The notes beneath the pieces were generated by a model, which was given only the letters and a program-made list of their open reading frames with translations, was not told the DNA's origin and made no database searches. From the NCBI RefSeq assembly GCF_900129785.1, contig NZ_FSRC01000002.1:868001-932000 (forward strand): 64,000 nucleotides of DNA, given 5' to 3'. This document shows, in pieces, positions 1 to 61,369 of the stretch. A program made the position numbers and the translations under genes. Within the stretch, counting starts at the first letter, position 1. Each line of letters begins with the position of its first letter. The DNA is from Algoriphagus halophilus. Its GTDB lineage: Bacteria > Bacteroidota > Bacteroidia > Cytophagales > Cyclobacteriaceae.

Positions 1-504
1 GATATGGGCTAAATGATGTTTGCCATGCCAACTATACATTAATGCTATTTCACTCAGAGGTGCAGAATGCTGTGATTCTGGGTGGAAATAGGTTTTTGAA
101 AAATCAGCAGGAGACATATGATCAAGGATCACTCCCCATTTGAAGTGAATATTTTTAAGGATTCCGATAGATACTTCGATAGGCAATTTATTGTCGGCCA
201 ATTCTGCCCAAGCTGCCTCGTCATAAGGTTTAATCGTAGGGTTTTCTTCAGTTAAAGCTAATTTAAACCTAATAAAGGCATTGATATGACTATCTGCGCA
301 GTGGTGAACTACTTGCCTGACGGTCCATCCTCCTGGTCTATAGGGAGTATCCAATTGATCCTCCGACATACTTTTCACAGTGGATTCCAAGAATTTAGGT
401 AAGGATTTTATTTCTTCAATGGCTTCTGCCAGATCGGATTCCGTAATTTGGTTTGGTATTTGAAATCTACCAATTGGATATTTCAATAATTCAATGTCTA
501 TCAT
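1..504 (-). CDS. DinB/YfiT-like putative metal-dependent hydrolase (bacillithiol S-transferase family), 3' end cut by window
   Basis: The reading frame starts at the ATG whose complement is at 502-504 and runs off the window edge after 168 codons. His67-His68 sit in a WTVRQVVHHCADSH segment, and a W159-H160-xx-H163-H164-xx-H167 motif lies at the end. These are the spaced histidines of the DinB four-helix fold that bind a metal ion in YfiT. YfiT/BstA-type enzymes transfer bacillithiol to electrophiles, and many Bacteroidota make bacillithiol, so that role is plausible but inferred. The start lies 7 bases beyond the comF stop codon, so the two genes are probably co-transcribed. No signal peptide is seen; it should be cytoplasmic. 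Confidence 0.8.
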   Translation of the reverse strand, partial: MIDIELLKYPIGRFQIPNQITESDLAEAIEEIKSLPKFLESTVKSMSEDQLDTPYRPGGWTVRQVVHHCADSHINAFIRFKLALTEENPTIKPYDEAAWAELADNKLPIEVSIGILKNIHFKWGVILDHMSPADFSKTYFHPESQHSAPLSEIALMYSWHGKHHLAHI

Positions 505-511
505 ATGCTCT

Positions 512-1198
512 TTATTTTCCTGCCGCAATGGTGATCAAATCTACAGTTTTTGCACCATTAGCCAAAAGCACATTTGCACATGAGCAAAGTGTCGCCCCTG
601 TAGTCATTACATCATCAACTAATAAAATTCTTCTGCCATCAGTAGGCCTAATTAGAGCAAATACTTCATCTACATTTTCCATCCTTTGAATTCTTGTCTT
701 TTTAGTCTGAGTTTCAGTGAATTTCTTTCTTTCTAACATTTCTTCAATAGGCAATTGCAAGCCATGGGAAAGCCCCTTGGCAAATTCCTCACTTTGATTG
801 TAGCCTCTTCGATATTTTTTTATGGGATGAAGTGGAACAGGAACAATAACATCCCAATTATTTGTCAAATCAACTTCATTTAATTGATTGGAATAGAGTT
901 CACCTAATTGAATTCCTAGCTTTGGCTTATTTCGATACTTAAGACAATGAAGAATTTTTTGACTTTTCCCATTTTTTGTAAACCTTAAAAATGACATGGC
1001 CATACCCACATTTGCGATACCTTTTATTTTTTGAGTCAGGTCATTTTCGCTCGGCATGGCATGATAAAGTGTCCTGGGGAGCGTTCCAATGCATATTTTA
1101 CAAAGACAGGATTCAAAATCGAATAAATTTCTGCCACATAGATCACAGGTTCTGGGAAATATTAAATCGAAAAAATCTTTGAAAAAAAGTAAACGCAT
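512..1198 (-). CDS. comF: ComF family phosphoribosyltransferase-like protein
   Basis: A 228-residue ComF family protein. The N-terminus has a zinc-binding cysteine cluster (Cys18, Cys21, Cys31, Cys33, Cys36), and the C-terminal half has the phosphoribosyltransferase PRPP loop ILLVDDVMTTGATL at about 191-204. ComF proteins are linked to uptake and processing of transforming DNA in competent bacteria; the enzymatic role of the PRTase fold is not settled. I start at the ATG (complement 1196-1198) rather than an in-frame TTG two codons upstream. It leads the downstream DinB-like gene with a 7-base gap. There is no linked comE or comM in this window, so a competence role is only family inference. 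Confidence 0.88.
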   Translation of the reverse strand: MRLLFFKDFFDLIFPRTCDLCGRNLFDFESCLCKICIGTLPRTLYHAMPSENDLTQKIKGIANVGMAMSFLRFTKNGKSQKILHCLKYRNKPKLGIQLGELYSNQLNEVDLTNNWDVIVPVPLHPIKKYRRGYNQSEEFAKGLSHGLQLPIEEMLERKKFTETQTKKTRIQRMENVDEVFALIRPTDGRRILLVDDVMTTGATLCSCANVLLANGAKTVDLITIAAGK

Positions 1199-1241
1199 CA
1201 GCAAAAAGTTCTGTTAGTACAATCCAAGGCCGAATACCTGC

Positions 1242-1249
1242 TATATTTG
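1242..1249 (+). promoter_or_regulatory. Candidate Bacteroidota -7 promoter box (TATATTTG)
   Basis: TATATTTG matches the Bacteroidota sigma-ABfr -7 consensus TAnnTTTG. It lies 32 bases before the ATG at 1282 and would leave a short leader. I do not see a convincing -33 TTTG at the right distance, so this is a partial match only. Confidence 0.35.
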
Positions 1250-1281
1250 CCTGTAAATGTGTATCCTAAACTGTTAATTTA

Positions 1282-1623
1282 ATGAATCTCATAGAGGAAT
1301 TCAATGATTATAGAGCGATGATGAATGAAAAGATCATGGCTGCTGACAATAAAGTATTAAAGAGGATTTTCAATTTGGATACGAATGCCTTTGCGGAAGG
1401 AGCTCTGGATGTTAAAACCAAGGAAATGTTAGGTCTTGCTTGTTCCATGGTCTTGAGGTGTGATGATTGCGTAAAATATCACTTAGGCAAATGCAAAGAA
1501 GTTGGATTAAACAAAACCGAAATTTTTGAGGTATTTTCGATTGCTACTTTAATTGGCGGATCTATTGTAATACCTCATTTAAGAAGAGCTTCAGAATATT
1601 GGGAGGAGCTTGAAAATCAATAG
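1282..1623 (+). CDS. Carboxymuconolactone decarboxylase / AhpD-like family protein
   Basis: A 113-residue all-helical protein with the AhpD-type redox motif Cys60-x-x-Cys63 followed by His67 (RCDDCVKYH). In this family the CxxC plus histidine supports alkylhydroperoxidase or disulfide-reductase activity; true carboxymuconolactone decarboxylases lack the cysteines, so a redox role is more likely here. Length is typical of single-domain members. It begins a closely spaced plus-strand series, with the next gene 8 bases downstream, and has a candidate promoter box at 1242. Cytoplasmic, with no signal peptide. Confidence 0.85.
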   Translation: MNLIEEFNDYRAMMNEKIMAADNKVLKRIFNLDTNAFAEGALDVKTKEMLGLACSMVLRCDDCVKYHLGKCKEVGLNKTEIFEVFSIATLIGGSIVIPHLRRASEYWEELENQ

Positions 1624-1631
1624 TTTACAAT

Positions 1632-1994
1632 ATGTTTAAAAAGGATTTAGATCTAGAAAAAAGGTGGTCCAAACTATTAGAAGGTCTAAAAGAAACGATC
1701 GGAAAAAAACCATCAGATCTAAATGGCGTTTTGTTTCTAATAGGAGTACAAGAATTGGGTCAAGGAAACAAGACTTTTACAAAAGAGCAAAAGCAAGATT
1801 TGATGCATATTGCTATTTGTAAAGTGCTAAGCTACGATGGTTTCTATGAGTTAGATTTTGTTGACCAAGATGGTTGGCCACACTGGAAGTTGGTAAAAGA
1901 ACTTCCTTATTTCGATTTATTGGAACAAGAAAAATTATTAAAAATTCAGGTACTGGAATACTTTGAAAAAGAGTACGAAATAGAAATAAAGTAA
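1632..1994 (+). CDS. Conserved hypothetical protein, 120 aa
   Basis: I do not recognise a named domain. The protein is soluble, rich in Lys and Glu, probably mostly helical, and has no signal peptide or membrane segment. A stretch around residues 70-100 is rich in Asp and aromatic residues (FYELDFVDQDGWPHW). It sits 8 bases after the AhpD-like gene and 2 bases before exonuclease III, so it is almost certainly translated as part of that operon. The tight spacing and frame-long ATG-to-stop reading frame are the evidence that it is a real gene. Function unknown. Confidence 0.75.
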   Translation: MFKKDLDLEKRWSKLLEGLKETIGKKPSDLNGVLFLIGVQELGQGNKTFTKEQKQDLMHIAICKVLSYDGFYELDFVDQDGWPHWKLVKELPYFDLLEQEKLLKIQVLEYFEKEYEIEIK

Positions 1995-1996
1995 GC

Positions 1997-2761
1997 ATGA
2001 AGATTGTCTCCTATAATGTAAACGGCATACGGGCAGCCATGAACAAAGGATTTGTAGAATGGTTACAACAAACAAACCCAGATGTCATTGGTTTACAGGA
2101 AGTTAAGGCATTAGAAAGTCAAATTGACAGTACTATATTTAAGGACTTAGGATATGAAATTTATTGGTATCCGGCAGTAAAAAAAGGCTACAGTGGCGTG
2201 GCTATTTTTACTAAGAAGACTCCTAAATCTATTAAACATGGTATGGGCTTGGACAAATACGATGATGAAGGAAGATTGTTGGAGGTTGAGTTCGATAATT
2301 TTTCATTCATATCTGCATATTTCCCTTCCGGTACCACTGGAGATATAAGACAAGGCTTCAAATATGAATTTCTGGATGATATCTATGGATACATGCAGGA
2401 CTTAAGACAATCGAAACCGAATATCATTTTAAGTGGTGATTATAATATTTGTCACAAAGCGATCGATATTCATAATCCTGTTTCCAATAAAAATAGTTCT
2501 GGTTTTTTACCAGAAGAAAGAGCATGGATGGATAAATTCACTGACTCAGGGTTTACAGACACATTCCGGTATTTTAATGAAGATCCTCATCATTATACCT
2601 GGTGGAGTTATAGAGCCAATGCAAGGGCCAAGAATTTAGGATGGAGAATAGATTATCATATGGCAACCAATGAAATGCAAAATAAACTGAAAAGGTCCGT
2701 AATTTTGCCTGAAGCGAAGCATTCAGATCATTGTCCCATATTATTAGAGTTAACTGATTAA
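1997..2761 (+). CDS. xth: Exodeoxyribonuclease III (AP endonuclease family 1)
   Basis: A 254-residue exonuclease III, which cleaves at abasic sites and removes 3' blocking groups in base-excision repair. The family's catalytic blocks are all present in order: YNVNGIRAA near the N-terminus (Asn7), LQEVKA with the metal-binding Glu around 34, SGDYNICH with the catalytic Asp/Asn near 148-150, RIDYHM, and the C-terminal SDHCPI with the catalytic Asp-His. Length is normal for the family. The ATG follows the upstream stop by 2 bases. Cytoplasmic; a housekeeping gene in the 1282-8128 run. Confidence 0.95.
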   Translation: MKIVSYNVNGIRAAMNKGFVEWLQQTNPDVIGLQEVKALESQIDSTIFKDLGYEIYWYPAVKKGYSGVAIFTKKTPKSIKHGMGLDKYDDEGRLLEVEFDNFSFISAYFPSGTTGDIRQGFKYEFLDDIYGYMQDLRQSKPNIILSGDYNICHKAIDIHNPVSNKNSSGFLPEERAWMDKFTDSGFTDTFRYFNEDPHHYTWWSYRANARAKNLGWRIDYHMATNEMQNKLKRSVILPEAKHSDHCPILLELTD

Positions 2762-2793
2762 ATCATACCTGTTGATCATTGAATAAAATAAAG

Positions 2794-3195
2794 ATGAAAT
2801 CAATAAAAATTTCCATACCCTCATTAATAGAGAATATTAAAATAATCGAAAGTTTTATCGATAACGCTAGAGAAAACTTCGATATCAATGATGATATCTA
2901 TGGAAATATCATGATTTCCGTCACCGAATGCATCAGCAATGCAATTATTCATGGAAATCAACATGACAAGAACAAATTAGTGCATCTGGAACTATTTATG
3001 GAAGATGAGCTCTTAAGGTTCGTTATTGAAGATGAAGGTCCTGGCTTTGATCTCACCGAACTAAAAGATCCTACAGAACCAGAAAACATAGAAAAACCGG
3101 GAGGAAGAGGCATATTCCTAATCAAGCATTTATCAGATGAGGTAAAATTTGAAGAAGAAGGAAGAAAGACCATTTTATCCTTCTATATGAATTAA
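2794..3195 (+). CDS. ATP-binding protein, RsbW/SpoIIAB-like anti-sigma factor kinase family
   Basis: A 133-residue GHKL/HATPase_c protein. The N box (TECISNAIIHGNQHD), G1 box (IEDEGPGFD) and G2 box (GGRGIFLIKHL) are intact, as in serine-protein kinases of the RsbW family that bind sigma factors or anti-sigma-factor antagonists. No sigma factor or STAS-domain partner is encoded next to it, so its partner is unknown. I start at ATG 2794; an in-frame TTG at 2779 would add five residues and is less likely. The gene is followed after 3 bases by ybeY. Confidence 0.85.
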   Translation: MKSIKISIPSLIENIKIIESFIDNARENFDINDDIYGNIMISVTECISNAIIHGNQHDKNKLVHLELFMEDELLRFVIEDEGPGFDLTELKDPTEPENIEKPGGRGIFLIKHLSDEVKFEEEGRKTILSFYMN

Positions 3196-3198
3196 GCC

Positions 3199-3624
3199 AT
3201 GGCTATAAATTTCTTTGAGGAAGAAACCACATTTCGTTTAGACAAAAGACAAAAGCGTAAAAAATGGCTTAAATCGATAGCAGACTCTGAAGAGTTCAAA
3301 ATTCTAGATTTAAATTACATCTTTTGCAGCGATGAATACCTCTACAACATCAATGTTGAATACCTAAATCATGATACCTATACAGATATCATCACCTTTG
3401 ATAATTCTGAAGAAGAAAACAAGATAGAAGGAGATGTTTTTATTAGTATCGATCGAGTTGAAGAAAACTCAAAAAAACTTCAAGTCCCCATAGAAGATGA
3501 ACTAAGCCGAGTAATTAGTCATGGTCTATTTCATCTAATGGGATACAAAGACAAGAAAAAAGAAGAAGTCGAAATGATGCGAACAAAAGAGGAGTTCGCT
3601 ATTAATTTATTTCAAAACATCTAG
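3199..3624 (+). CDS. ybeY: Endoribonuclease YbeY (16S rRNA maturation)
   Basis: A 141-residue YbeY, a metal-dependent endoribonuclease in rRNA 3'-end maturation and ribosome quality control. The metal motif reads H108-GLF-H112-LMGY-K-D118-K. Most bacteria have HGxLHLxGYDH with a third histidine where this protein has Asp118. As far as I know this YKDK version is usual in Bacteroidota, so it is a lineage trait rather than a loss of function. The gene ends in TAG at 3622-3624 and a perfect ParB-site palindrome begins on the very next base. It is the last gene before the parS/mnmG segment. Confidence 0.92.
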   Translation: MAINFFEEETTFRLDKRQKRKKWLKSIADSEEFKILDLNYIFCSDEYLYNINVEYLNHDTYTDIITFDNSEEENKIEGDVFISIDRVEENSKKLQVPIEDELSRVISHGLFHLMGYKDKKKEEVEMMRTKEEFAINLFQNI

Positions 3625-3640
3625 TGTTCCACGTGGAACA
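3625..3640. other. parS-like ParB-binding site 1 (perfect 16-bp palindrome)
   Basis: TGTTCCACGTGGAACA is a perfect palindrome and matches the widely conserved chromosomal parS consensus TGTTnCACGTGAAACA with one change on the right arm. It directly abuts the ybeY stop codon. ParB loads here and recruits SMC for origin segregation in bacteria with ParABS. The parAB genes are not in this window. Confidence 0.82.
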
Positions 3641-3670
3641 GGAGAACAAAACAAGTTCTTTATATTTAAA

Positions 3671-3686
3671 CGTTCCACGTGAAACA
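3671..3686. other. parS-like ParB-binding site 2
   Basis: CGTTCCACGTGAAACA matches the parS consensus TGTTnCACGTGAAACA at all but the first base. It lies 46 bases (centre to centre) from site 1, in the intergenic gap just before the mnmG start codon at 3706. Two such sites within 62 bases make chance occurrence very unlikely. Confidence 0.83.
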
Positions 3687-3705
3687 GTAAACAAAAATAT
3701 AAATC

Positions 3706-5571
3706 ATGTTTCCAAAATATGATGTCATTGTAGTAGGAGCCGGGCACGCGGGTTGTGAAGCAGCGCATGCGGCAGCACAAATGGGTTCTAAGGTATTATT
3801 ATGTACCATGAACATGAATACCATTGCTCAAATGTCATGTAATCCTGCCATGGGAGGAGTGGCGAAAGGTCAAATAGTTAGAGAAATTGACGCATTAGGG
3901 GGAATGTCTGGAATAATTTCAGATAAATCCATGATCCAATTTAGAATGCTAAACAGATCAAAAGGGCCTGCTATGTGGTCTCCACGCTCCCAAAATGATA
4001 GAATGAGATTCGCGGAAGAATGGAGATTAGCACTAGAAAGGACTCCAAACGTTGATTTCTGGCAGGAAATGATTACAGGAATCCTAGTAAAGGACGGAAG
4101 AGCAAAAGGAGTCAGGACTGGAATAGGAATAGAGATTGAGGCAGAAAGCGTGGTTTTAACCAATGGAACTTTCCTGAATGGTCTCATTCATATCGGTGAA
4201 AAACAATTCGGAGGTGGCAGAACCGGGGAGGCGGCAGCAAAGGGGATTACAGAACAATTAGTCTCTTTGGGCTTCGAATCAGGAAGGATGAAGACTGGAA
4301 CCCCTCCAAGAGTAGATGGAAGAAGTTTGGATTACTCCAAAATGGAGATCCAATATGGTGATGAAAATCCAGAGAAATTCAGCTATTCTGATGAAACCAG
4401 CCCTATAAAAGGGCAAAGAACTTGTTGGATTACTTATACCAATAAAGATGTTCACAATACTTTAGAGGAAGGTTTTGACCGTTCTCCTATGTTCAATGGA
4501 AGGATCCAAGGATTAGGACCAAGATATTGTCCTTCTATAGAAGACAAGATTAATAGGTTTGCAGAAAGGGATAGACATCAAATATTCGTGGAACCTGAAG
4601 GATGGGACACAGTAGAAATCTATGTAAACGGATTTTCAACTTCGTTGCCTGAAGACGTACAATACAAAGCTATTCGTAAAATCGCTGGTTTCGAAAACGC
4701 AAAAATGTTTAGACCAGGTTATGCTATAGAATATGATTTCTTCCCGCCAACTCAACTTAAACTTACTTTAGAAACCCAGTTGGTAGAAAACTTGTACTTC
4801 GCAGGGCAAATCAATGGTACAACAGGATATGAAGAAGCAGCCTCTCAAGGGTTGATAGCTGGTATCAATGCAAGTTTGAAAGTGCAGGAAAAAGATCCTT
4901 TCTTATTGAAAAGATCAGATGCTTACATTGGTGTTTTAATTGACGATTTGATCAATAAAGGGACAGAAGAACCATACAGAATGTTTACCTCAAGGGCAGA
5001 ATTCAGGTTATTACTTAGACAAGACAATGCGGATTTACGCCTTACTCAGCTAGGATATGATATTAATTTGGCAAGCCAGGAAAGATTGGATAAAATGCTA
5101 AATAAAAAGAAAGAAACTGCCCGACTAATCAATGATCTTAAACAGAAAAAACTAGCTCCAGAACAAATAAACAAAGGTTTAGAACAAATAGGCACTGCTG
5201 AGATCAAAGAAAAAATAGTGGTTGAAAAACTGCTAAAAAGACCTCAAATTGGTTTGAATGACCTTATGATTTTAGATCCAGAATTAGATAAATTCTTATC
5301 AGGATTTTCTACAGATGTAAGGGAACAAGCGGAAGTTCAAATTAAGTACGACAGTTATATCGAAAAGGAACAGCAGATGGTAGAAAAATTGAGTAATATG
5401 GAAAATTACAAAATTCCACTCAAGTTTGATTACTTAACCATTCCAGCACTTTCTAATGAAGGAAAACAAAAGCTGAACAAAATAAAACCCGAAACCTTAG
5501 GACAAGCTTCAAGAATCAGTGGGGTATCGCCAGCTGACCTCTCGATCCTTACCGTTTATTTAGGAAGATAA
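3706..5571 (+). CDS. mnmG: tRNA uridine-5-carboxymethylaminomethyl(34) synthesis enzyme MnmG (GidA)
   Basis: A 621-residue FAD enzyme that, with MnmE, installs the cmnm5 or nm5 group on wobble uridine 34 of certain tRNAs. The dinucleotide-binding motif VVGAGHAGCEAA is at residues 8-20, GidA signature GPRYCPSIEDK at about 271-281, and the second signature GQINGTTGYEEAA at about 367-379. Full family length. It starts at ATG 3706, 20 bases after a parS-like site, and the next gene follows after 2 bases. gidA is close to the replication origin in many bacteria, which fits the candidate origin 2.5 kb downstream. Confidence 0.97.
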   Translation: MFPKYDVIVVGAGHAGCEAAHAAAQMGSKVLLCTMNMNTIAQMSCNPAMGGVAKGQIVREIDALGGMSGIISDKSMIQFRMLNRSKGPAMWSPRSQNDRMRFAEEWRLALERTPNVDFWQEMITGILVKDGRAKGVRTGIGIEIEAESVVLTNGTFLNGLIHIGEKQFGGGRTGEAAAKGITEQLVSLGFESGRMKTGTPPRVDGRSLDYSKMEIQYGDENPEKFSYSDETSPIKGQRTCWITYTNKDVHNTLEEGFDRSPMFNGRIQGLGPRYCPSIEDKINRFAERDRHQIFVEPEGWDTVEIYVNGFSTSLPEDVQYKAIRKIAGFENAKMFRPGYAIEYDFFPPTQLKLTLETQLVENLYFAGQINGTTGYEEAASQGLIAGINASLKVQEKDPFLLKRSDAYIGVLIDDLINKGTEEPYRMFTSRAEFRLLLRQDNADLRLTQLGYDINLASQERLDKMLNKKKETARLINDLKQKKLAPEQINKGLEQIGTAEIKEKIVVEKLLKRPQIGLNDLMILDPELDKFLSGFSTDVREQAEVQIKYDSYIEKEQQMVEKLSNMENYKIPLKFDYLTIPALSNEGKQKLNKIKPETLGQASRISGVSPADLSILTVYLGR

Positions 5572-5573
5572 TC

Positions 5574-6470
5574 ATGGCTGAAAGACTCAGTAAATGCCCA
5601 CTCTGCAAAAGTGGGCTTTTTCTTAATTACACAGAAATCAAAGATTATGCAGTAAGCAAGGAGACCTTCATTATCTGCCAATGCCAGAATTGCTCTCTAC
5701 TTTTTACTAATCCTAGACCCAAGGAAGATAAAATAGGTCCTTACTATGATTTCCCAGAATATTATTCCCACGAAAAGAATAATAAAAGCATTACCCAATT
5801 CATTTATAATAAGGTAAGGGATTATGCAGTTTCTGAGAAAGTAAAACTGATTACTTCTCTAAAAGGAACAGGCAAACTTTTGGATTATGGCTGCGGAACA
5901 GGAGAATTCCTATATGCCGCTAAACAAAAGGGTTGGAAGATAAAAGGAGTAGAACCTACTAAAAAAGCCCGAGAACAAGCAAATCATTTATTGGAAGATT
6001 CAGTGGTAAGAACCATCGATCAATTAGAAGATAAAAAGAAATATGATGTGATCAGTCTCTTTCATGTTTTGGAACACATCCATACACTAAGGAAAACTAT
6101 AAAAAAACTCATAAACCACTTAAAATCAGATGGTTACATTATATTTGCTGTTCCAAATCCAACCTCTTGGGATGCTCAGAACTATGGCAAAGAATGGGCA
6201 GGATGGGATGTACCCAGGCATTTATATCACTTCAATTCCACAGCTATCAAAAATTTTGAACAACTATTTGATTTAGAGCTTGTTGAAACTAAACCAATGC
6301 CTTTTGACAGCTACTATGTATCCTTGTTATCCGAAGGATATCTTCATCCAGAACAATCTACCATTTCAAAATACCTAAAAGCAGTAATATCAGGATGGAA
6401 ATCCAACAAAGCTGCGAAAAACGAAATGGGACAATACTCCAGTAATCTCTTTATTTTTAAAAAGAAGTGA
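5574..6470 (+). CDS. Class I SAM-dependent methyltransferase with N-terminal zinc ribbon
   Basis: A 298-residue methyltransferase. The N-terminus carries two cysteine pairs (CPLC near 8-11 and CQCQNC near 35-40), likely a zinc ribbon. The SAM-binding glycine motif LLDYGCGTGEFL is at about 101-112, and HVLEHI near 163 matches motif IV-like positions of Methyltransf_23 proteins. The substrate is not evident. It follows mnmG by 2 bases and overlaps the next gene by 4 bases (GTGA), so translation is probably coupled. Cytoplasmic. Confidence 0.85.
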   Translation: MAERLSKCPLCKSGLFLNYTEIKDYAVSKETFIICQCQNCSLLFTNPRPKEDKIGPYYDFPEYYSHEKNNKSITQFIYNKVRDYAVSEKVKLITSLKGTGKLLDYGCGTGEFLYAAKQKGWKIKGVEPTKKAREQANHLLEDSVVRTIDQLEDKKKYDVISLFHVLEHIHTLRKTIKKLINHLKSDGYIIFAVPNPTSWDAQNYGKEWAGWDVPRHLYHFNSTAIKNFEQLFDLELVETKPMPFDSYYVSLLSEGYLHPEQSTISKYLKAVISGWKSNKAAKNEMGQYSSNLFIFKKK

Positions 6471-8128
6471 AATACAGATTATACATATCATTCCTTTTCC
6501 TCGCTTTCCTATTTTATGCATGTGCAAAGCAAAGTACTCCAATGGGTGGGCCAAGGGATCAAGATCCACCCGTGGTTCTAGAAATGTTTCCTTCCAATCA
6601 AAGTTTGAACCAAAGACCTGAGGAAATACTAATCGTATTCGATGAATATATTAAACTTGATAACCCGAATAAAAATATCATCATCACTCCTAAGGTAGAT
6701 AAAGATGAATTGGTAATTACAGCATTAAAAAACACGGTAAAAATAGAATTGAATCAGGATTTAGAAGACAGTACTACTTATGTATTCAACTTCCAAAAAT
6801 CAATTGAGGATTTATCTGAGGGAAACCCAACAGAAAATTTAAAACTTGTTTTTTCTACAGGAGAAACAATTGATAGCCTAAAATTTAGCGGTAAAGTCAA
6901 TAATTACTTCCCAAAAAGAGGTTTTTTATACGAAAATGTAATTATAGGATTATATGAATCAAATGATACAACTGATGTATTTACAGCTCCTCCCTACTAC
7001 CTAAGCCAAGCAGATTCATTAGGAAATTTCTCAATAGAAAACATCAAAGCGGGAAAATATAGAGCTTATGCTTGGCATGATGATAACAATTCACTCAAAG
7101 CAGAATATAAAAGCGAAGCTTATGACTTCATCTTGGATACGATAGATATCCAAGATGAAGTATCAGGAGCAATATTTAATTTATCAAATGCTGACCAAAC
7201 ACAAATAAAACTAACGAGATCATCTACCTCCGGAGGAAACTATGATCTAGTACTCAACAAGGACCCATTAGAAATTGAATTGGCAAATGAAAGAATAGGA
7301 AAAGATATCTTCTATATAGTAACAGATAAAAAAATTACGCTCTATTCAACACAGCCTATTCAAGACAGTGTGAAAATTGATCTTCAACTCCAGGATTCAT
7401 TAAGTTTTAAAGTAGACACTACCATTTATGCCAAGTTTGAGGAGAGCAAAAGAAGAGCTGAAAAATTAACCTATACAGTCAATTCCGGGAAAAACTTTTA
7501 CCAAGACTTATTAATCGAATTAACCTTCAATAAACCAATTGCAGATATATCCTACGATTCTTTATACATCGCGTACGATACAGCATTCCAAATCACTATA
7601 ACTCCTGAAATGATCTCTTTTCAAGACTCCATGAAAAGAGATCAATTGAATATCCAACTTATAATACCCGACTCTTTAACCACTGATATAGTTACTATCA
7701 AAGCTGCAGACTCAACCTTCAGAGATATTGAAGGGCAATTCAATGAAGCAGTTTTAGCAGCAAACTATAGAAAACTTAAAAGAGAAACCCTAGCAGACGA
7801 GTTATCAGGCCAAATTGTAGGGGCTACAGCACCCTATATAGTTCAATTAATTGATTCAAAATCCCAGATAATAAAAGAGCTTTATATAACTGAAGGGAAT
7901 GAATTCAAATTTGAATTATTGGAACCAATTACATACAAAATACGGGTAATCGAAGACTTGAATAAAAATCGTCACTGGGATCCTTCAAATTATTTGGAGG
8001 AAAGGTATGCTGAAAGAGTATTTTATTACGTACATCCAGATACCAATTCACAAGACATAGTTATAAAATCAGGCTGGATTACAGAAGATTTGACCATCGA
8101 AGCAACGCCTAAAACAGGCTTAAATTAA
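6467..8128 (+). CDS. Ig-like (SbsA-type) domain lipoprotein
   Basis: A 553-residue predicted lipoprotein starting with GTG at 6467, overlapping the methyltransferase stop. The signal peptide ends at an SPII site before Cys19 (FLFYAC-AKQ), followed by STPMGGPRDQDPP, an opening I associate with this Bacteroidota family. Residues about 35-115 resemble a bacterial Ig-like domain; the rest is beta-rich, with a second Ig-like repeat near 350-420 and a C-terminal beta-sandwich like a carboxypeptidase-regulatory fold. It likely sits on a membrane surface; its function is unknown. The gene ends directly before the candidate origin. Confidence 0.85.
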   Translation: MKYRLYISFLFLAFLFYACAKQSTPMGGPRDQDPPVVLEMFPSNQSLNQRPEEILIVFDEYIKLDNPNKNIIITPKVDKDELVITALKNTVKIELNQDLEDSTTYVFNFQKSIEDLSEGNPTENLKLVFSTGETIDSLKFSGKVNNYFPKRGFLYENVIIGLYESNDTTDVFTAPPYYLSQADSLGNFSIENIKAGKYRAYAWHDDNNSLKAEYKSEAYDFILDTIDIQDEVSGAIFNLSNADQTQIKLTRSSTSGGNYDLVLNKDPLEIELANERIGKDIFYIVTDKKITLYSTQPIQDSVKIDLQLQDSLSFKVDTTIYAKFEESKRRAEKLTYTVNSGKNFYQDLLIELTFNKPIADISYDSLYIAYDTAFQITITPEMISFQDSMKRDQLNIQLIIPDSLTTDIVTIKAADSTFRDIEGQFNEAVLAANYRKLKRETLADELSGQIVGATAPYIVQLIDSKSQIIKELYITEGNEFKFELLEPITYKIRVIEDLNKNRHWDPSNYLEERYAERVFYYVHPDTNSQDIVIKSGWITEDLTIEATPKTGLN

Positions 8129-8603
8129 GACAAAAAAGACCTGTTGATAACTTGGCATTAACTGTGGAAAAGAGTGAACAAAAACAGGAAAAAAATAGAC
8201 TTATCCCCATACTTGAAAAATGGAAAAAACAAAATCTTACCATTCGGGGATAAGTGCTGAAATGTCCACAGAAGCCCAATAAGTAATCCACAGCTATTTT
8301 ACTAACAGTTAATAAGCAGGAAAAAACTTCAAAATAGTGGATAAAAAATCAGTAACCAGAAAATCAATGATTTACATGTGGAAAAAGCTGGTATAACTGT
8401 TAGGATAAGAAAGAATAAAGCACCAAAGAATCGTGGAGAACTTTTTTAATCTCCTTTGTCCACAAATCCACAGACCTAATAACTGTAATAAGATTTTTAT
8501 TTAAATAAGATATAATAACTATTACCAAGTGGACAATGTGGATAGATTCTAGAATAAGTCATTTTTTCATTAACTTATTTATCCATAACCCAAAAAACAC
8601 AAA
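8129..8603. other. Candidate chromosomal replication origin (oriC): DnaA-box cluster with AT-rich unwinding tract
   Basis: This 475-base gene-free stretch has many sequences within one base of the DnaA box TTATCCACA. By hand: 8142-8150 (-), 8163-8171 (-, TTTTCCACA), 8201-8209 (+, TTATCCCCA), 8284-8292 (+, TAATCCACA), 8336-8344 (-, TTATCCACT), 8377-8385 (-, TTTTCCACA), 8456-8464 (+, TTGTCCACA), 8537-8545 (-, CTATCCACA) and 8579-8587 (+, TTATCCATA). Several weaker ones lie between, e.g. 8262-8270 and 8464-8472. An almost pure A/T tract at about 8478-8528 could be the unwinding element. Neither strand carries a credible gene here. The parS pair 5 kb upstream and nearby mnmG support the call. dnaA is not in the window. 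Confidence 0.8.
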
Positions 8604-10352
8604 ATGGCCTTACATCGATTATTTGATCTCATCCCATATCAGATTAGTGAATACGATAAAGAGATTTCACTAGCTTTTAAGGAAAATGATACTTGGCAAA
8701 CCTACTCTTCCCGAGAAGTAAAGGAAATAATTGATAATTTGAGTTTGGCATTTTTAAAAGCGGGAATATCAAAGAATGATAAAGTTGCCCTTATCTCTCA
8801 AAACAGACCTGAATGGAATTTTGTAGACTTGGCTTTGCAACAAATTGGGGCGATTTCCATTCCTATGTACCCTACGATAACGACTGAGGATTATCGATAC
8901 ATATTCGATCATGCAGAAGTTAAAATGATTTTTGTGGGAGACCAGGAAATTCTAACTAAAGCACAAGAAGCTGCAGACGGAAGAAAAATCTTCTGTTTTC
9001 AGCAATTGGAGGGAGTAGAATTTTGGAGAGATTTTATGGAAACGGGACAAAGTGGAGATCTTGCAGAACTAGAAAAAGCCAAATCTGAAGTTACTGCAGA
9101 TGATCTTTTTACGATTATTTATACTTCTGGGACCACGGGTAGACCTAAAGGTGTTATGTTGACCCATCAAAATGTGCTAAGCAATGTGTTGGCAGTTTCT
9201 GAACGATTACTCCTTGAAAAGGGAACCAGTAAAGTCCTAAGCTTTTTGCCAATCTGCCATATTTTTGAGAGAACAGGTTCATTTTGTTGTTTCTATTTGG
9301 GTATATCGATTTACTATGCAGAAAGCCTTGAAAAAATTGGAGATAATCTAAGAGAAATCAAACCTCATGGATTTAATACCGTTCCCCGACTTTTGGAAAA
9401 AATTTATGATAAGATCGTATCCAAGGGATATGAATTGAAAGGAATAAAGAAGTCACTTTTCTTTTGGGCTTTGAAATTAGGAAATCAATATGATCCGGCA
9501 ACTGATCAAGGAGCTTGGTATAATTGGCAGCTTAAAATGGCCAATAAATTAATATTCAGTAAATGGAGGGAAGCTTTGGGAGGTGAAATAATTCAGATCA
9601 ATTCAGGTGCCTCTGCTTTACAACCTCGATTAGCTAGAATTTTCTGGGCAGCAGGCATCCCGGTTTGTGAAGGATATGGACTTACAGAGACATCTCCGGT
9701 GGTTTCATCCTCAATTTGTAGCCATGAGGAGATTAGAATTGGTTATGTGGGCAAAATCTTAGAAGGAGTTCAAGTGAGAATCGCTGAAGATGGTGAAATT
9801 CTGGTGAAGGGACCCAATGTGATGCAAGGGTATTACAAGCAGGAGGATCTCACGACTGAGGTGCTCCAAAACGACTGGTTCCATACTGGAGATATAGGTG
9901 AGCTCGATGGAGAATACTTAAAGATTACGGATCGAAAGAAAGAGATGTTTAAAACTTCTGGAGGCAAATACGTTGCTCCACAAGTAATAGAAAATAAAAT
10001 CAAGGAATCCAGTCTCATTGACCAGGTAATGGTAGTTGGCGAAAACAGAAATTATCCTGCAGCTTTGATCGTGCCCAGCGAAGATGGCTTGAAAGAATAT
10101 TGCAGGCACAAAGGATATCCATTTACTGAATTGGCCGAAATGGTAGAAAGGCCAGAAGTTATTGCCAAATACGAAAGAATTATAGAGGACATGAACAAGT
10201 ATTTTGCAAAATGGGAAACCATCAAACGCTTTAAAATTCTTCCTGATCCATGGTCTATCGAATCCGGTGAATTAACACCTACCATGAAATTGAAGAGGAA
10301 AATCATCTTGGGTAAGTATGAGAAAGAGGTGGAAACTCTTTATAATTCTTGA
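8604..10352 (+). CDS. fadD: Long-chain acyl-CoA synthetase (AMP-forming)
   Basis: A 582-residue adenylate-forming enzyme that activates long-chain fatty acids to acyl-CoA through an acyl-AMP. The P-loop-like motif YTSGTTGRPKGVMLTH is at about 173-188, the acyl-binding/AMP motif GYGLTETSPV near 357, TGDIGELDG near 428 and the hinge motif DRKKEMFKTSGGKYVAP at about 443-459. Full family length; no signal peptide, so cytoplasmic or peripheral. It is the first gene after the candidate origin and lies upstream of a MarR-led beta-oxidation operon, to which it would supply substrate. The 280-base gap to the regulator suggests a separate transcript. Confidence 0.93.
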   Translation: MALHRLFDLIPYQISEYDKEISLAFKENDTWQTYSSREVKEIIDNLSLAFLKAGISKNDKVALISQNRPEWNFVDLALQQIGAISIPMYPTITTEDYRYIFDHAEVKMIFVGDQEILTKAQEAADGRKIFCFQQLEGVEFWRDFMETGQSGDLAELEKAKSEVTADDLFTIIYTSGTTGRPKGVMLTHQNVLSNVLAVSERLLLEKGTSKVLSFLPICHIFERTGSFCCFYLGISIYYAESLEKIGDNLREIKPHGFNTVPRLLEKIYDKIVSKGYELKGIKKSLFFWALKLGNQYDPATDQGAWYNWQLKMANKLIFSKWREALGGEIIQINSGASALQPRLARIFWAAGIPVCEGYGLTETSPVVSSSICSHEEIRIGYVGKILEGVQVRIAEDGEILVKGPNVMQGYYKQEDLTTEVLQNDWFHTGDIGELDGEYLKITDRKKEMFKTSGGKYVAPQVIENKIKESSLIDQVMVVGENRNYPAALIVPSEDGLKEYCRHKGYPFTELAEMVERPEVIAKYERIIEDMNKYFAKWETIKRFKILPDPWSIESGELTPTMKLKRKIILGKYEKEVETLYNS

Positions 10353-10540
10353 TATTCTTTTGATCCAGATCAATTAATGTTTCTGAAGGTATATGAACTA
10401 AAATTTGAGACTTTGGTATTTAGCCAAACATGATTTGGAAAAGGAAGTATTTCTTAAATTATATTCTGAATATTTTTATTTAACTTAGTATTACTAATAA
10501 ATAGTTTTGTTAATTTAAAAATTACCATTTTTAATTTGTG

Positions 10541-10580
10541 ATGCATGCATAACTTTTTAATCAATATAGTATGCATGCAT
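10541..10580. promoter_or_regulatory. Twin palindromic operator (two ATGCATGCAT sites) upstream of marR
   Basis: The 10-bp palindrome ATGCATGCAT occurs at 10541-10550 and again at 10571-10580, exactly 30 bases apart (about three helical turns). The second extends to a perfect 14-bp palindrome, GTATGCATGCATAC. They lie 53-92 bases before the MarR-family start codon, where an autoregulatory site would be expected. The surrounding region (10353-10632) otherwise holds no gene. Confidence 0.6.
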
Positions 10581-10632
10581 ACAAAATTTTCGTTACATTA
10601 GTTGTCCTTAGAATTTGGACAAAATCTGCAGT

Positions 10633-11103
10633 ATGAAGCGAGAAGAAACAGTTGATTATCATATTAAAAGCGCCTGGCATGCCATTTCTAGAATGTACAA
10701 TCAGAAGGCAGCAGGAGAAGGTTTCACTACTGCGATTGGTTTTGTCCTGATTAATATAAATTCTAAAGAAGGGACACCGGCAACGAAAATAGCGCCGATG
10801 ATGGGTTTGGAAACAAGGAGCCTGACTCGGATGCTGAAAAACATGGAGGAAAAAGGACTCATTTATAAGAAGCCTGATCTTGTAGATAAAAGATCCGTTA
10901 GAATTTTTTTGACGGAGGAAGGAAAAAGAAAAAAAGAAATTTCAATTGCCACTATTAGGGAGTTTAACGAACAGATTCGAGAGGTAGTAAGTGAAGCTGA
11001 TTTGAAAAACTTCTTTCAAATTTTTGAGAAAATTCAATTGGTGATCGATCAGGTTCAGTCCGAAGGATCAGATGAAATCAACAAAATCATATTTGAACTA
11101 TAA
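10633..11103 (+). CDS. MarR-family transcriptional regulator of the beta-oxidation operon
   Basis: A 156-residue winged-helix regulator. The helix-turn-helix region includes KIAPMMGLETRSLTRMLKNM followed by the wing segment ending DKRSVRIFLTEEG, typical of MarR. I start at ATG 10633; a TTG at 10615 is also in frame but less likely. The gene lies 44 bases before the hydroxyacyl-CoA dehydrogenase gene, so it probably leads the fad operon. Twin palindromes at 10541-10580 are its likely binding sites. An acyl-CoA or fatty acid as effector is inferred from context only. Confidence 0.85.
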   Translation: MKREETVDYHIKSAWHAISRMYNQKAAGEGFTTAIGFVLININSKEGTPATKIAPMMGLETRSLTRMLKNMEEKGLIYKKPDLVDKRSVRIFLTEEGKRKKEISIATIREFNEQIREVVSEADLKNFFQIFEKIQLVIDQVQSEGSDEINKIIFEL

Positions 11104-11147
11104 AAAAGAGCCATAAAAGGCCTATAACTACAGAAAAACCCAAAGAA

Positions 11148-13553
11148 ATGAAAAGAACCATAAAAAATGTCGCCATTTTAGGTTCAGGAGTGATGGGGTC
11201 AAGAATTGCCTGTCATTTCGCGAACATAGGTGTACAAGTACTTTTATTAGATATTGTTCCTTTTGAATTGACGGAACAGGAAGAAAAAAAAGGATTAACG
11301 AAAGAGCACCCAATAGTCCGAAATAGGATCGTAAATACGGCTTTGCAAAATACCCTAAAAGCTAAACCATCGCCTATCTATGATAAGGATTTTGCCTCAA
11401 GAATTCAGACGGGAAACTTTGATGATGATTTACCTAAAATCAAAGATTATGACTGGATTATGGAAGTGGTGGTAGAACGATTGGATATTAAGCAATCCCT
11501 TTTTGAAAAGGTTGAAAAATTTCGGAAACCAGGAACCTTGATTACCTCCAATACATCGGGTATTCCGATGCATATGATGTGCGAAGGCAGGTCGGAAGAT
11601 TTTCAAATCAATTTTGCAGGAACTCACTTTTTCAATCCTCCTCGCTATCTCAGGTTATTGGAAATTATACCTGGACCGAAAACAAATCCTGAAATCATCG
11701 AATTCCTGATGGATTTTGGAGATAAATTTTTGGGTAAAGAAACGGTCTTGTGCAAAGATACTCCGGCTTTTATCGCCAATAGAATTGGAGTGTATGCCAT
11801 TATTTCGGCTATGCATTCTATAGAGAAAATGGGCTTAGGAGTTTCCGAAGTCGATAAATTGACGGGAACGGTGATAGGGAGAGCAAAATCAGCCACATTT
11901 AGAACCATGGATGTAGTGGGCTTGGATACCACTGTGAATGTGGCCAATAACCTCTACAAAGCTCTTCCCAATGATGAATCCAGAGAGAAGTTTAAACTTC
12001 CAAAAATAGTTGAAGTTCTCTATAACAATAAGTGGTTTGGAGATAAAACAGGCCAAGGTTATTTCAAAATGATTCGTCATAAAGATGGATCGAAAGAGTT
12101 AAAAGAAATTGACTTCAACACCTTCGAATATAAGGATATTGAAAAGCCAAAATTCAAAGCCTTAGAAGCATCCAAAAGCATTGAAGACCTAAAAGAACGA
12201 ATCAAATTTTTGGTCAATTTCGATGATCAAGCTGGTGAATTTTACCGTACCACATTTTATGACTTGTTCAGGTACTGTTCCAATAGAATACCGGAAATAG
12301 CTGATGAATTGTATAGAATTGATCAGGCAGTGAGTGCAGGTTTTGGGTGGGAATATGGACCATTTGAAAGCTGGGATATTCTTGGAGTTAAGGATACTGT
12401 AGAAAAAATGGAAGCAGCGGGCGAAAAACCAGCAGCTTGGGTTTATGAAATGTTAAACGCTGGCAATTCTTCTTTTTATAAGGTAGAGGCGGGTAAAAAA
12501 CACTATTATGATATTCCAACCAAGACATACAAGGAAGTTCCTGGAATAGAGGATTTCATCATTCTTGATACCTTGAAATCTGCTGGGAAAAAGATTTGGG
12601 GAAATGCTGGAGCTACAGTCTATGATATGGGCGATGAGGTTATCGGATTGGAATTTCATACCAAAATGAATTCCATGGGATCCGAAGTGGTGGAAGGGAT
12701 CAATACCGCGATTGGAATGGCAGAAAAATCTTATAAAGGATTGGTGATCGGAAACGAGGGAGCCAATTTCTCTGCTGGAGCCAACCTTGCCATGTTGTTT
12801 ATGTTTGCCGGGGATCAGGATTTCGATGAGATCAATTTAATGATTGCCCAATTCCAAAACACCATGATGCGAGCTAGATTTTCTTCAGTTCCAGTGGTGG
12901 TAGCTCCTCATAATATGGCCTTGGGAGGAGGATGTGAACTCTCTTTACATTCAGATCATGTACAAGCTCATGCAGAATTATATATGGGTCTAGTGGAAGT
13001 CGGTGTTGGATTAATTCCTGCGGGAGGTGGTACCAAGGAAATGACCCTAAGATTTTCGGATAGCTTGATCAATGGGGATGTGGAATTAAATCAACTACAA
13101 GAATACTTTATGAACATTGCCATGGCAAAGGTTTCCACCTCTGCTCAGGAAGCAAAAGGTTTAGGGTATCTGAGAAAGAGCGATGGAATTACATTGAATC
13201 GTAAGAGACAATTGGCAGATGCCAAATCCAAAGTAATTTCTCTATTTAATGAGGGCTACTCACAGCCTATAGAAAAAAAGGACATCAAAGTACTAGGTAA
13301 GGAATCCTTGGCTTTGTTTGAAGCAGGTATAACCGGAATGCGATACGGAGCCTATATATCTGAACATGATGCTAAAATTGCAAGAAAACTGGCTTGGGTA
13401 ATGTCAGGGGGAGACTTGTCTTCTCCAACAGAAGTATCAGAACGATATTTATTGGATTTGGAACGGGAGGCATTTTTAAGTTTGACCGGAGAGAAAAAGA
13501 CCTTGGAAAGAATCCATAGCATACTCTTCAAGGGAAAACCACTTAGAAATTAA
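11148..13553 (+). CDS. fadN: 3-hydroxyacyl-CoA dehydrogenase / enoyl-CoA hydratase (FadN-like)
   Basis: An 801-residue bifunctional beta-oxidation enzyme. The Rossmann NAD motif ILGSGVMGSRIACHF is at residues 9-23, followed by the dehydrogenase core (THFFNPPRYLRLLEI near 165-180) and the C-terminal dehydrogenase domain. The crotonase part lies at about 490-720, with oxyanion-hole segments NEGANFSAGANL and NMALGGGCELSLHSD. The order dehydrogenase-then-hydratase matches Bacillus FadN and is the reverse of E. coli FadB/FadJ. It hydrates enoyl-CoA and oxidises 3-hydroxyacyl-CoA, feeding the thiolase gene 43 bases downstream. Confidence 0.92.
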   Translation: MKRTIKNVAILGSGVMGSRIACHFANIGVQVLLLDIVPFELTEQEEKKGLTKEHPIVRNRIVNTALQNTLKAKPSPIYDKDFASRIQTGNFDDDLPKIKDYDWIMEVVVERLDIKQSLFEKVEKFRKPGTLITSNTSGIPMHMMCEGRSEDFQINFAGTHFFNPPRYLRLLEIIPGPKTNPEIIEFLMDFGDKFLGKETVLCKDTPAFIANRIGVYAIISAMHSIEKMGLGVSEVDKLTGTVIGRAKSATFRTMDVVGLDTTVNVANNLYKALPNDESREKFKLPKIVEVLYNNKWFGDKTGQGYFKMIRHKDGSKELKEIDFNTFEYKDIEKPKFKALEASKSIEDLKERIKFLVNFDDQAGEFYRTTFYDLFRYCSNRIPEIADELYRIDQAVSAGFGWEYGPFESWDILGVKDTVEKMEAAGEKPAAWVYEMLNAGNSSFYKVEAGKKHYYDIPTKTYKEVPGIEDFIILDTLKSAGKKIWGNAGATVYDMGDEVIGLEFHTKMNSMGSEVVEGINTAIGMAEKSYKGLVIGNEGANFSAGANLAMLFMFAGDQDFDEINLMIAQFQNTMMRARFSSVPVVVAPHNMALGGGCELSLHSDHVQAHAELYMGLVEVGVGLIPAGGGTKEMTLRFSDSLINGDVELNQLQEYFMNIAMAKVSTSAQEAKGLGYLRKSDGITLNRKRQLADAKSKVISLFNEGYSQPIEKKDIKVLGKESLALFEAGITGMRYGAYISEHDAKIARKLAWVMSGGDLSSPTEVSERYLLDLEREAFLSLTGEKKTLERIHSILFKGKPLRN

Positions 13554-60208: not shown

Positions 60209-60277
60209 ATTCTAAATATAAATGATTTGAAGAATTCCTTCCTTAAATTAGGCTTTTGGTGCTTATCCACATCCGAG

Positions 60278-60886
60278 ATGATCAAAAATTTACTGCTTTT
60301 AGCCTTTGTGTTTTCCTTTCTTTCTGTTTCAGCCTTGGGGCAAGAATATATCCAATCAATTTCAGAATTTCAGGAAGCGCTTAATGCAGAATTTAAAAAT
60401 CCGGATGAATCACCTCTTTCTTCCAAGGAAAGAAAGGAGTTTAAAGGACTTCCTTTTTATCCTGTTGATGAACACTTTAGAGTTATTGCAAAATTTGATA
60501 AACTTCCGCCAAGAAGTCTATTTCAAATGAAAACAACCGCAAATTCTATCAAAGATTATGATGTGTATGGAGTATTGATCTTTTCATTGGAAGGGAAGGA
60601 ATATCGCTTAAATGTTTATCAAAGCCATGTCTTAAGGACCCAGGAAAAGTATGAGGACTACCTTTTTCTACCCTTTACAGATTTGACGAATGGAACTGAA
60701 ACCTATGGTGGAGGCAGATATATGGATTTGAAAATTCCTTCTGGCGATACCATGGAATTGGATTTCAATAAAGCCTATAATCCATTTTGTGCCTATTCCG
60801 ATGGGTATGCCTGTCCCATTCCTCCAAGAGAAAATGACTTGCAATTGGCAGTTCGTGCTGGAGTCATGTATTCTCCCAAAAAATAA
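60278..60886 (+). CDS. DUF1684 secreted protein
   Basis: A 202-residue secreted protein, with signal peptide MIKNLLLLAFVFSFLSVSAL then GQE. I start at ATG 60278 because it places the signal peptide at the N-terminus; an in-frame upstream start at 60203 would overlap the divergent gene. DUF1684 markers: RLNVYQSHVL, LFLPFTDLTNGTETYGGGRY and DFNKAYNPFCAYSDGYACPI, plus a late ENDL. Function unknown; the conserved Asn-Pro-Cys/Cys cluster suggests a metal or redox site. Convergent with the small membrane gene after 2 bases. Confidence 0.85.
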   Translation: MIKNLLLLAFVFSFLSVSALGQEYIQSISEFQEALNAEFKNPDESPLSSKERKEFKGLPFYPVDEHFRVIAKFDKLPPRSLFQMKTTANSIKDYDVYGVLIFSLEGKEYRLNVYQSHVLRTQEKYEDYLFLPFTDLTNGTETYGGGRYMDLKIPSGDTMELDFNKAYNPFCAYSDGYACPIPPRENDLQLAVRAGVMYSPKK

Positions 60887-60888
60887 AC

Positions 60889-61128
60889 TCATTTTCGAAA
60901 AGACTTAGCCTTAGCTCGATACACCCAGAGATAAGAGAAAAACCCCAGGATTACCTGAATGAAGATAAAATAAAACCATGTGGAAGGTTGGGATAGTGGT
61001 TCAGAATTGATTGTACCGTTATAATATAGTTTCGATACGGTCAAGGCAGCAATACAAGCAGGAAGTACAATAACCAACCAGAATTTAAAGAAGGATTGGT
61101 AGATAAATGGAGGCTTTTTAGAATTCAT
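60889..61128 (-). CDS. Small two-helix membrane protein (sister of the next gene)
   Basis: A 79-residue protein with two membrane helices (FWLVIVLPACIAALTV and WFYFIFIQVILGFFSYLWVY). Its layout (F..FxxFWxxIxLPA near the N-terminus, two helices, short basic tail) repeats that of the 83-residue gene just upstream, so they are likely paralogues. I recognise no named family. It overlaps that gene by 11 bases, implying coupled translation. It is the last gene of the five-gene minus-strand operon. Confidence 0.68.
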   Translation of the reverse strand: MNSKKPPFIYQSFFKFWLVIVLPACIAALTVSKLYYNGTINSEPLSQPSTWFYFIFIQVILGFFSYLWVYRAKAKSFRK

Positions 61129-61369
61129 TTTTCTTGTTTTGTCCTAGGTTGGGTTTATAAATGAAGTAATAATTCCCAATGGACCATACTATTAGCAATG
61201 CGAAAAAAATGAGGTAAAAATCCGAATCTTTTAGAAAATCAGAGGAAAATGTTCGGTGTTTAATCGAATAATATCCAAAGGTCCAAAATATGGCTCCAGG
61301 CAAAGTTATTTTACTCCAAAATTTAATATGAGGAGTAAATGAACGTTGGAATCTGGTTTTTCTTTCCAT
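61118..61369 (-). CDS. Small two-helix membrane protein (sister of the previous gene)
   Basis: An 83-residue protein with two membrane helices (FWSKITLPGAIFWTFGYYSI and FYLIFFALLIVWSIGNYYFI) and charged ends. The ATG at 61367-61369 shares its first base with the TGA stop of the upstream lipoprotein gene (TGATG), a stop-start overlap typical of coupled translation. No family recognised; possibly an accessory or immunity-like membrane partner of the serine hydrolase, which is only a guess. Confidence 0.68.
   Translation of the reverse strand: MERKTRFQRSFTPHIKFWSKITLPGAIFWTFGYYSIKHRTFSSDFLKDSDFYLIFFALLIVWSIGNYYFIYKPNLGQNKKNEF

Follow-up and report, generated by a model that had tools for sequence, protein, structure and literature searches.

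A very probable chromosomal replication origin near gidA in an Algoriphagus species, and an origin-proximal field of exact DnaA boxes

The gene-free gap at positions 8129-8603 of the window is very probably the oriC of the main chromosome of this Algoriphagus species. The window is the whole stretch of DNA analyzed, 64,000 nucleotides at C2:868001-932000 of genome G000, which comprises 4,976,387 bp in eight contigs; contig C2 measures 1,127,893 bp. We favor this reading, already proposed in an earlier note, because the densest DnaA box cluster on C2, a GC skew switch, a change in third-codon-position skew, a conserved gene placement, a conserved predicted unwinding core, and a pair of parS-like sites all agree.

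DnaA boxes cluster in a gene-free gap

Nine sites at one mismatch to the DnaA box TTATCCACA were located between 8142 and 8587, four on the plus and five on the minus strand, and a recount agreed exactly with the earlier claim of nine near-boxes on both strands in 475 gene-free bases. None of the nine is an exact copy of TTATCCACA. A further six sites in the gap have two mismatches, and no open reading frame (ORF) of 80 amino acids or more was found between 8128 and 8604.

8129-8603, no strand: oriC gap, gene-free, between the lipoprotein gene and fadD (from box count, ORF list, density, and conservation)
8142-8150, minus strand: DnaA box TTATCAACA, one mismatch
8163-8171, minus strand: DnaA box TTTTCCACA, one mismatch
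8201-8209, plus strand: DnaA box TTATCCCCA, one mismatch
8284-8292, plus strand: DnaA box TAATCCACA, one mismatch
8336-8344, minus strand: DnaA box TTATCCACT, one mismatch
8377-8385, minus strand: DnaA box TTTTCCACA, one mismatch
8456-8464, plus strand: DnaA box TTGTCCACA, first box of the tandem unwinding unit, one mismatch
8537-8545, minus strand: DnaA box CTATCCACA, one mismatch
8579-8587, plus strand: DnaA box TTATCCATA, one mismatch

Membership of bacterial oriC requires a cluster of DnaA boxes far above background, and the gap contains one. The whole window holds 31 sites with at most one mismatch versus 20.9 expected, and approximately 0.16 would be expected per 475 bp. The earlier note had named equal box density elsewhere as evidence against an origin; on C2, the gap is the densest 475-bp stretch with nine sites, and the next clusters hold five and five (475 sites on the entire contig). 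Thirty permuted words on C2:600001-1127893 reached a maximum of five per 475 bp.

The dnaA gene is not adjacent to the gap but on another contig, at C1:194956-195441, as anticipated by the earlier description of a gap flanked by an Ig-like lipoprotein gene and fadD. Many bacterial origins adjoin dnaA or dnaN, though this is no requirement. The best box count in the dnaA surroundings (C1:140001-240000) was three. Three boxes per 475 bp were absent from all 19 sampled 20-kb stretches of C1, and the closest pair of exact boxes on that contig was never less than 2.3 kb apart.

The gene neighborhood and the box cluster are conserved

The expectation that gidA and parS would be close by was borne out by the genes and sites listed here.

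3199-3624, plus strand: ybeY
3625-3640, no strand: parS-like palindrome TGTTCCACGTGGAACA (C2:871625)
3672-3685, no strand: second parS-like site GTTCCACGTGAAAC (C2:871672)
3706-5571, plus strand: gidA/mnmG
5574-6470, plus strand: methyltransferase (Methyltransf_23)
6467-8128, plus strand: Ig-like (Big_5) protein, probably a lipoprotein; left neighbor of oriC in relatives
8604-10352, plus strand: fadD-like acyl-CoA ligase (AMP-binding), right neighbor of oriC

C2 has no other match to GTTNCACGTGNAAC than the sites at 3625 and 3672, which lie between ybeY and gidA and are putative parS by the consensus. Conservation was assessed in the best 80 of 581 relatives found by GidA, with Algoriphagus lutimaris (98%) the nearest named species among the matches listed. 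At least two parS-like sites occur within 300 bp before gidA in 74 of the 80 loci, with one site in three loci and none in three. Five copies were seen in L079, L115, and L128.

Removal of three loci without a lipoprotein hit and four with a contig ending within 600 bp of that gene left 73 usable loci. The genera among the loci include Algoriphagus, Echinicola, Belliella, Cyclobacterium, Roseivirga, Fulvivirga, and Arcicella. The densest 500-bp box cluster starts behind the lipoprotein gene in 73 of 73 loci, which are mutually non-independent as relatives. Between three and 12 boxes were counted in the 750 bp behind that gene, and box density was 9.2 per kb there versus 0.36 elsewhere in the loci. 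The right neighbor is fadD in 39 of the 73, and 25 have no fadD hit in the locus; the cluster is kept in all.

A predicted unwinding core adjoins the tandem boxes

A probable AT-rich unwinding element, also required for membership of bacterial oriC, was found adjoining the tandem boxes.

8464-8472, plus strand: weaker box AAATCCACA, second of the tandem unit; two mismatches, one-base overlap with the first
8477-8494, plus strand: DnaA-trio-like run TAATAA-CTG-TAATAAGAT
8478-8528, no strand: AT-rich tract, 51 bp, 86% A+T; probable duplex-unwinding element
8519-8545, minus strand: mirrored unit of boxes CTATCCACA and TTGTCCACT, then TAATAG, aimed into the AT tract

The tract had been described as almost pure A/T, which overstates the measured 86%. 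It is not the AT-richest part of the window: its best 50-mer is equaled or exceeded at 56 start positions, those in the gap included. In an alignment of 30 close origins, a strongly conserved core block runs from two tandem boxes over a short spacer to TAATAA, then through three bases and usually TAATAR to the AT tract. With up to three mismatches allowed, the whole 4.98-Mb genome contains this pattern once. The published rule for a basal unwinding system (BUS) asks for a box with at most two mismatches, a spacer of 0-16, and at least three NAN trios. The unit here falls only just inside it, with the weaker box 8464-8472 at two mismatches, a spacer of 13, and the three trios TAATAAGAT; tandem boxes in a BUS lie at most 3 bp apart, and the two here overlap by one base.

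A strict tandem-plus-trio unit was present on the same strand in 65 of the 73 relatives' loci and missing from eight, with three hits outside the gaps, both strands counted. Fifty of those 65 relatives carry a minus-strand box (at most one mismatch) 30-150 bp downstream of the core, and a tandem minus pair lies downstream in 19 of 65 versus six of 260 control stretches. A minus-strand strict unit was found anywhere in the gap in eight of 73 loci, two of which (L075 and L082) have it on the far side of the core. The exact core pattern was found in seven of 291 genomes of the order, a count that we do not read as absence elsewhere since the pattern was judged too tight (spacers of three or four bases, variable boxes). 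A looser fixed-spacer pattern was found in two of eight genomes, with one of its three hits away from oriC (contig C8 of A. kandeliae, G293). Outside the training set, a weight matrix built from the 30 close origins scored highest behind the lipoprotein gene in 33 of 44 loci; the window was among the training origins, which makes the matrix's high score on C2 partly circular. Rfam at gathering scores gave no match in window positions 3500-12000.

GC skew switches near the gap

Cumulative GC skew on C2 is lowest at ~869 kb, ~7 kb to the left (gidA side) of the gap. On C1, 24 samples of 20 kb changed from positive to negative at ~1.6-2.0 Mb, a maximum as at a terminus; the one sample from C3 was positive. 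Two relatives assembled as single contigs gave the same picture. In G307 (4,816,080 bp), nine boxes starting at 4399875 are flanked by the two genes seen in the window, and a local skew minimum lies at ~4393 kb (within 4380-4580 kb), ~7 kb from the boxes. G329 (6,378,979 bp) has seven boxes from 5195960, again between these genes, and a local minimum at ~5189 kb (within 20 kb), also ~7 kb away. G307 samples had positive skew between 0.1 and 1.6 Mb and negative skew between 2.1 and 4.38 Mb, but those to the right of the gap at 4420001, 4540001-4580000, and 4700001 were negative as well. Across 64 relatives, the total-skew minimum lay 6.9 to 8.4 kb to the left of the gap in 31 and at a greater leftward distance in 28; in the other five it was no more than 0.7 kb from the gap.

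Skew at third codon positions changes at the gap itself. Among 39 relatives with both neighbors, the lipoprotein gene was negative in all 39, fadD was above it in all 39, and fadD was positive in 35. In the window, every gene between 2779 and 8128 other than gidA (0.05) has negative skew, each of the eight genes measured beyond the gap on the right has positive skew, and three small genes at 1282-2761 have values of 0.20, 0.31, and 0.02. Because third-position skew is negative to the left and positive to the right of the gap, the 7-kb offset of total skew probably reflects G-richness of the sense strand in the rightward run of genes that includes gidA. The negative-to-positive switch that marks a bacterial oriC is found here, across the gap at third codon positions and ~7 kb away in total skew. 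The earlier note had expected the skew minimum within a few kb of 8.3 kb; a switch near the gap was confirmed, but the minimum itself lies ~7 kb to the gidA side in C2, G307, and G329.

Replication might instead begin where gene direction switches, near 1.2 kb, at the total GC skew minimum ~7 kb left of the gap. The position of the minimum in this genome, G307, and G329 and the positive third-position skew of the three small genes speak for such a site, but window positions 1-8141 lack any site within one mismatch of the box, and third-position skew is negative from 2779 up to the gap, gidA excepted, and positive in the eight genes measured to its right; we regard initiation there as very improbable. 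It is just as hard to credit that the gap is a DnaA-binding regulatory locus, either datA- or DARS-like or a DnaA-controlled fadD promoter. Box clusters that are not origins do exist, in E. coli and B. subtilis according to passages of a review (PMC5295017) and in this genome. The trio-like run and AT tract adjoining the tandem boxes, the skew switch near the gap in single-contig relatives, and the lack of any other C2 cluster above five boxes argue against a regulatory locus, and a fadD promoter fits poorly with a cluster that persists in all 73 loci when fadD is the neighbor in just over half of them.

If the gap is oriC, DnaA-ATP would occupy the left array of moderate boxes, and the tandem boxes at 8456-8472 would position DnaA so that a filament could spread onto the trio-like run at 8477-8494 and melt the AT tract at 8478-8528. 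A contribution from the opposite side may come from the mirrored unit at 8519-8545. Helicases would then load and two forks depart; segregation of the new origins would fall to ParB acting at the parS-like pair, 4.5 kb left of the gap.

Exact DnaA boxes are enriched in the wider surroundings of oriC

The genome contains 74 exact boxes compared with 44 copies of a control word. Thirty-two lie within 250 kb of oriC versus 42 in the remaining 4476 kb, a 6.8-fold excess, and none was found within 50 kb of oriC. Enrichment of 4- to 11-fold within 250-300 kb of oriC was seen in five Algoriphagus genomes (for G307 and G329, among the matches listed). In A. formosus (G294), 43 of 74 exact boxes are within 250 kb (11-fold), and in A. 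kandeliae 36 of 63 (9-fold), both calculated with a rounded genome size. Among the matches listed, G307 has at least 47 of 103 exact boxes within 284 kb (6.3-fold) and G329 at least 36 of 121 within 300 kb (4.1-fold). In Litoribacter populi (G295), at least 54 of 130 lie at 184-337 kb, with oriC at ~167 kb; in Echinicola pacifica (G292), where oriC is at ~665 kb, the 590-655 kb stretch holds at least 25 of 126, and C13 carries a further dense stretch among the matches listed. A total excess is absent from A. zhangzhouensis (G291; 63 versus 60 control words) and Roseivirga (23 versus 45) and small in Parachryseolinea (43 versus 34) and the MAG SSF30 (35 versus 26).

Most of the near boxes (27 of 32; C2, 50-260 kb from oriC) are inside genes, where 40 synonymous resamplings averaged ~5.0. 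By distance, nine coding boxes were found at 50-100 kb (resampling maximum, four) and 12 at 100-175 kb (maximum, six). The 175-260 kb bin held six against a maximum of seven and is not significant alone; the 0-50 kb bin held none versus 1.6 expected. Of 300 permuted words, two were as numerous near oriC and one had a higher near/far ratio, with five and zero copies.

The right end of the window reaches into this field.

60263-60271, plus strand: exact DnaA box of the origin-proximal field
61369-62601, minus strand: serine-hydrolase-like ORF (Pfam Beta-lactamase2) carrying the box cluster
62003-62011, plus strand: exact DnaA box in this ORF, position kept in relatives
62082-62090, plus strand: near-exact box TTTTCCACA
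62228-62236, plus strand: exact DnaA box, position kept in relatives
62297-62305, plus strand: exact DnaA box, position kept in relatives

The ORF at 61369-62601 has matches in 51 of 59 genomes of the genus, and 30 sequences, its own included, were compared; the relatives are 64-78% identical. These contain 58 exact boxes versus 8.2 expected, counts that relatedness inflates, and three alignment columns carry an exact box in 13, 14, and 21 of the 30. Eight sequences have none (L166, L172, L177, L181, L183, L185, L189, and L191). In G307, the source of L166, exact boxes flank oriC left and right, away from the orthologue of this ORF, so the field may move between genes.

The exact boxes at C2:928263-930305 (window 60263-62305) and C2:933390-933575 fall within coding ORFs. 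Around the orthologous genes, 20-kb stretches contain 17 exact boxes in A. formosus and 14 in A. kandeliae. At C2:1039183-1039632 (L017), a 450-bp stretch holds four exact boxes plus a near-exact one; it is inside a 521-aa ORF that adjoins an ORF resembling, by eye, an AAA+ ATPase. A second origin at the 62003-62305 cluster was considered and rejected, because the boxes sit in a coding ORF and the skew switch is ~60 kb away.

A conserved box triple lies between presumed clc and mtgA genes

A triple of exact boxes occupies C2:763414-763519, 113 kb from oriC; a further box, at 763362, has one mismatch. The flanking convergent ORFs are presumably clc and mtgA, judging by their sequences; because the genes converge, a promoter role for the boxes is disfavored. 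Of 341 genomes from the order, 41 carry the spaced box triple: all 20 sampled from the same genus (own included), each with both clc and mtgA flanking, five of 39 from the family's other genera, and 16 elsewhere. Eight of the 16 and two of the five were inspected, and all ten lacked clc/mtgA neighbors within 1.5 kb. Rfam at gathering scores returned no match for the element (L007:2500-4500); the flank is conserved.

Discussion

The E. coli oriC combines a box array with an AT-rich element, and the Algoriphagus gap, like gammaproteobacterial origins, has both and is near gidA; here, however, methyltransferase and Ig-like lipoprotein genes separate gidA from oriC, parS-like sites precede gidA, and the tandem-box/trio unit is conserved. 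Passages of PMC10225481 place the origin of E. coli and of Y. pestis KIM+ at gidA-mioC. As in the BUS of B. subtilis, described in parts of PMC8287927 and PMC6669920, tandem boxes stand beside trio-like repeats and AT-rich DNA, whereas here the boxes overlap by one base, CTG interrupts the trio run, and a mirrored second unit faces the first. B. subtilis requires boxes 6 and 7 in one direction, according to a passage of PMC6669920.

The earlier note held that methods expecting dnaA beside oriC would miss this site. Because Ori-Finder 2022, as outlined in PMC10225481, relies on skew, boxes, and lineage-specific indicator genes, it may well find the 8129-8603 gap. The top open-access literature matches, which leave out most subscription journals, included no work on an oriC from Cytophagales or Algoriphagus, and DoriC may hold predictions for Cytophagales origins. 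An oriC near gidA is known in gammaproteobacteria. We consider the field of exact boxes more novel than the origin itself.

The exact-box field and the clc-mtgA element resemble DnaA-titration sites. Conserved boxes of presumed high affinity near oriC, the mark of a datA-like site, are found in the clc-mtgA element and at window 60263-62305, with affinity judged from the exact match. Extra DnaA-box clusters outside oriC are described in B. subtilis (passages of PMC5295017; Okumura 2012, via that review) and at E. coli datA (part of PMC4585315). The clc-mtgA element is likewise non-coding and conserved, with several boxes, whereas most boxes of the field are within coding sequences. In E. coli and Salmonella, boxes are denser around oriC and were proposed to titrate DnaA (Olivi et al., 2025, PMC12371093, in the sections available); here, in another phylum, it is the exact boxes alone that are enriched, 4- to 11-fold over 250-300 kb, and some sit at the same codons across species.

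An evenly balanced proposal is that Algoriphagus and its relatives regulate initiation by titrating DnaA with perfect boxes in origin-proximal coding sequences and the clc-mtgA element, the boxes of oriC being weaker, so that early duplication of the field would block re-initiation. It is rather unlikely, but still a serious competitor, that the exact words are sites for another origin-proximal factor (nucleoid occlusion or condensin loading) or a by-product of codon use. In its favor, the argument for titration by DnaA is drawn from sequence, A. zhangzhouensis has no whole-genome excess, and the 175-260 kb bin is within the resampling range. The exact word is nevertheless the standard DnaA box, which weighs against another factor, and codon use predicts ~5 coding copies at 50-260 kb where 27 were observed and falls far short of the 58 boxes in the serine-hydrolase-like ORF.

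In this genome, dnaA is no guide to the origin. The conserved order of parS, gidA, methyltransferase, lipoprotein, and oriC can be used to orient genomes and to estimate growth rates from coverage in Cytophagales. With the field of exact boxes, some of which keep the same codon positions although the genes have diverged, initiator titration could be tested as a model beyond E. coli and B. subtilis.
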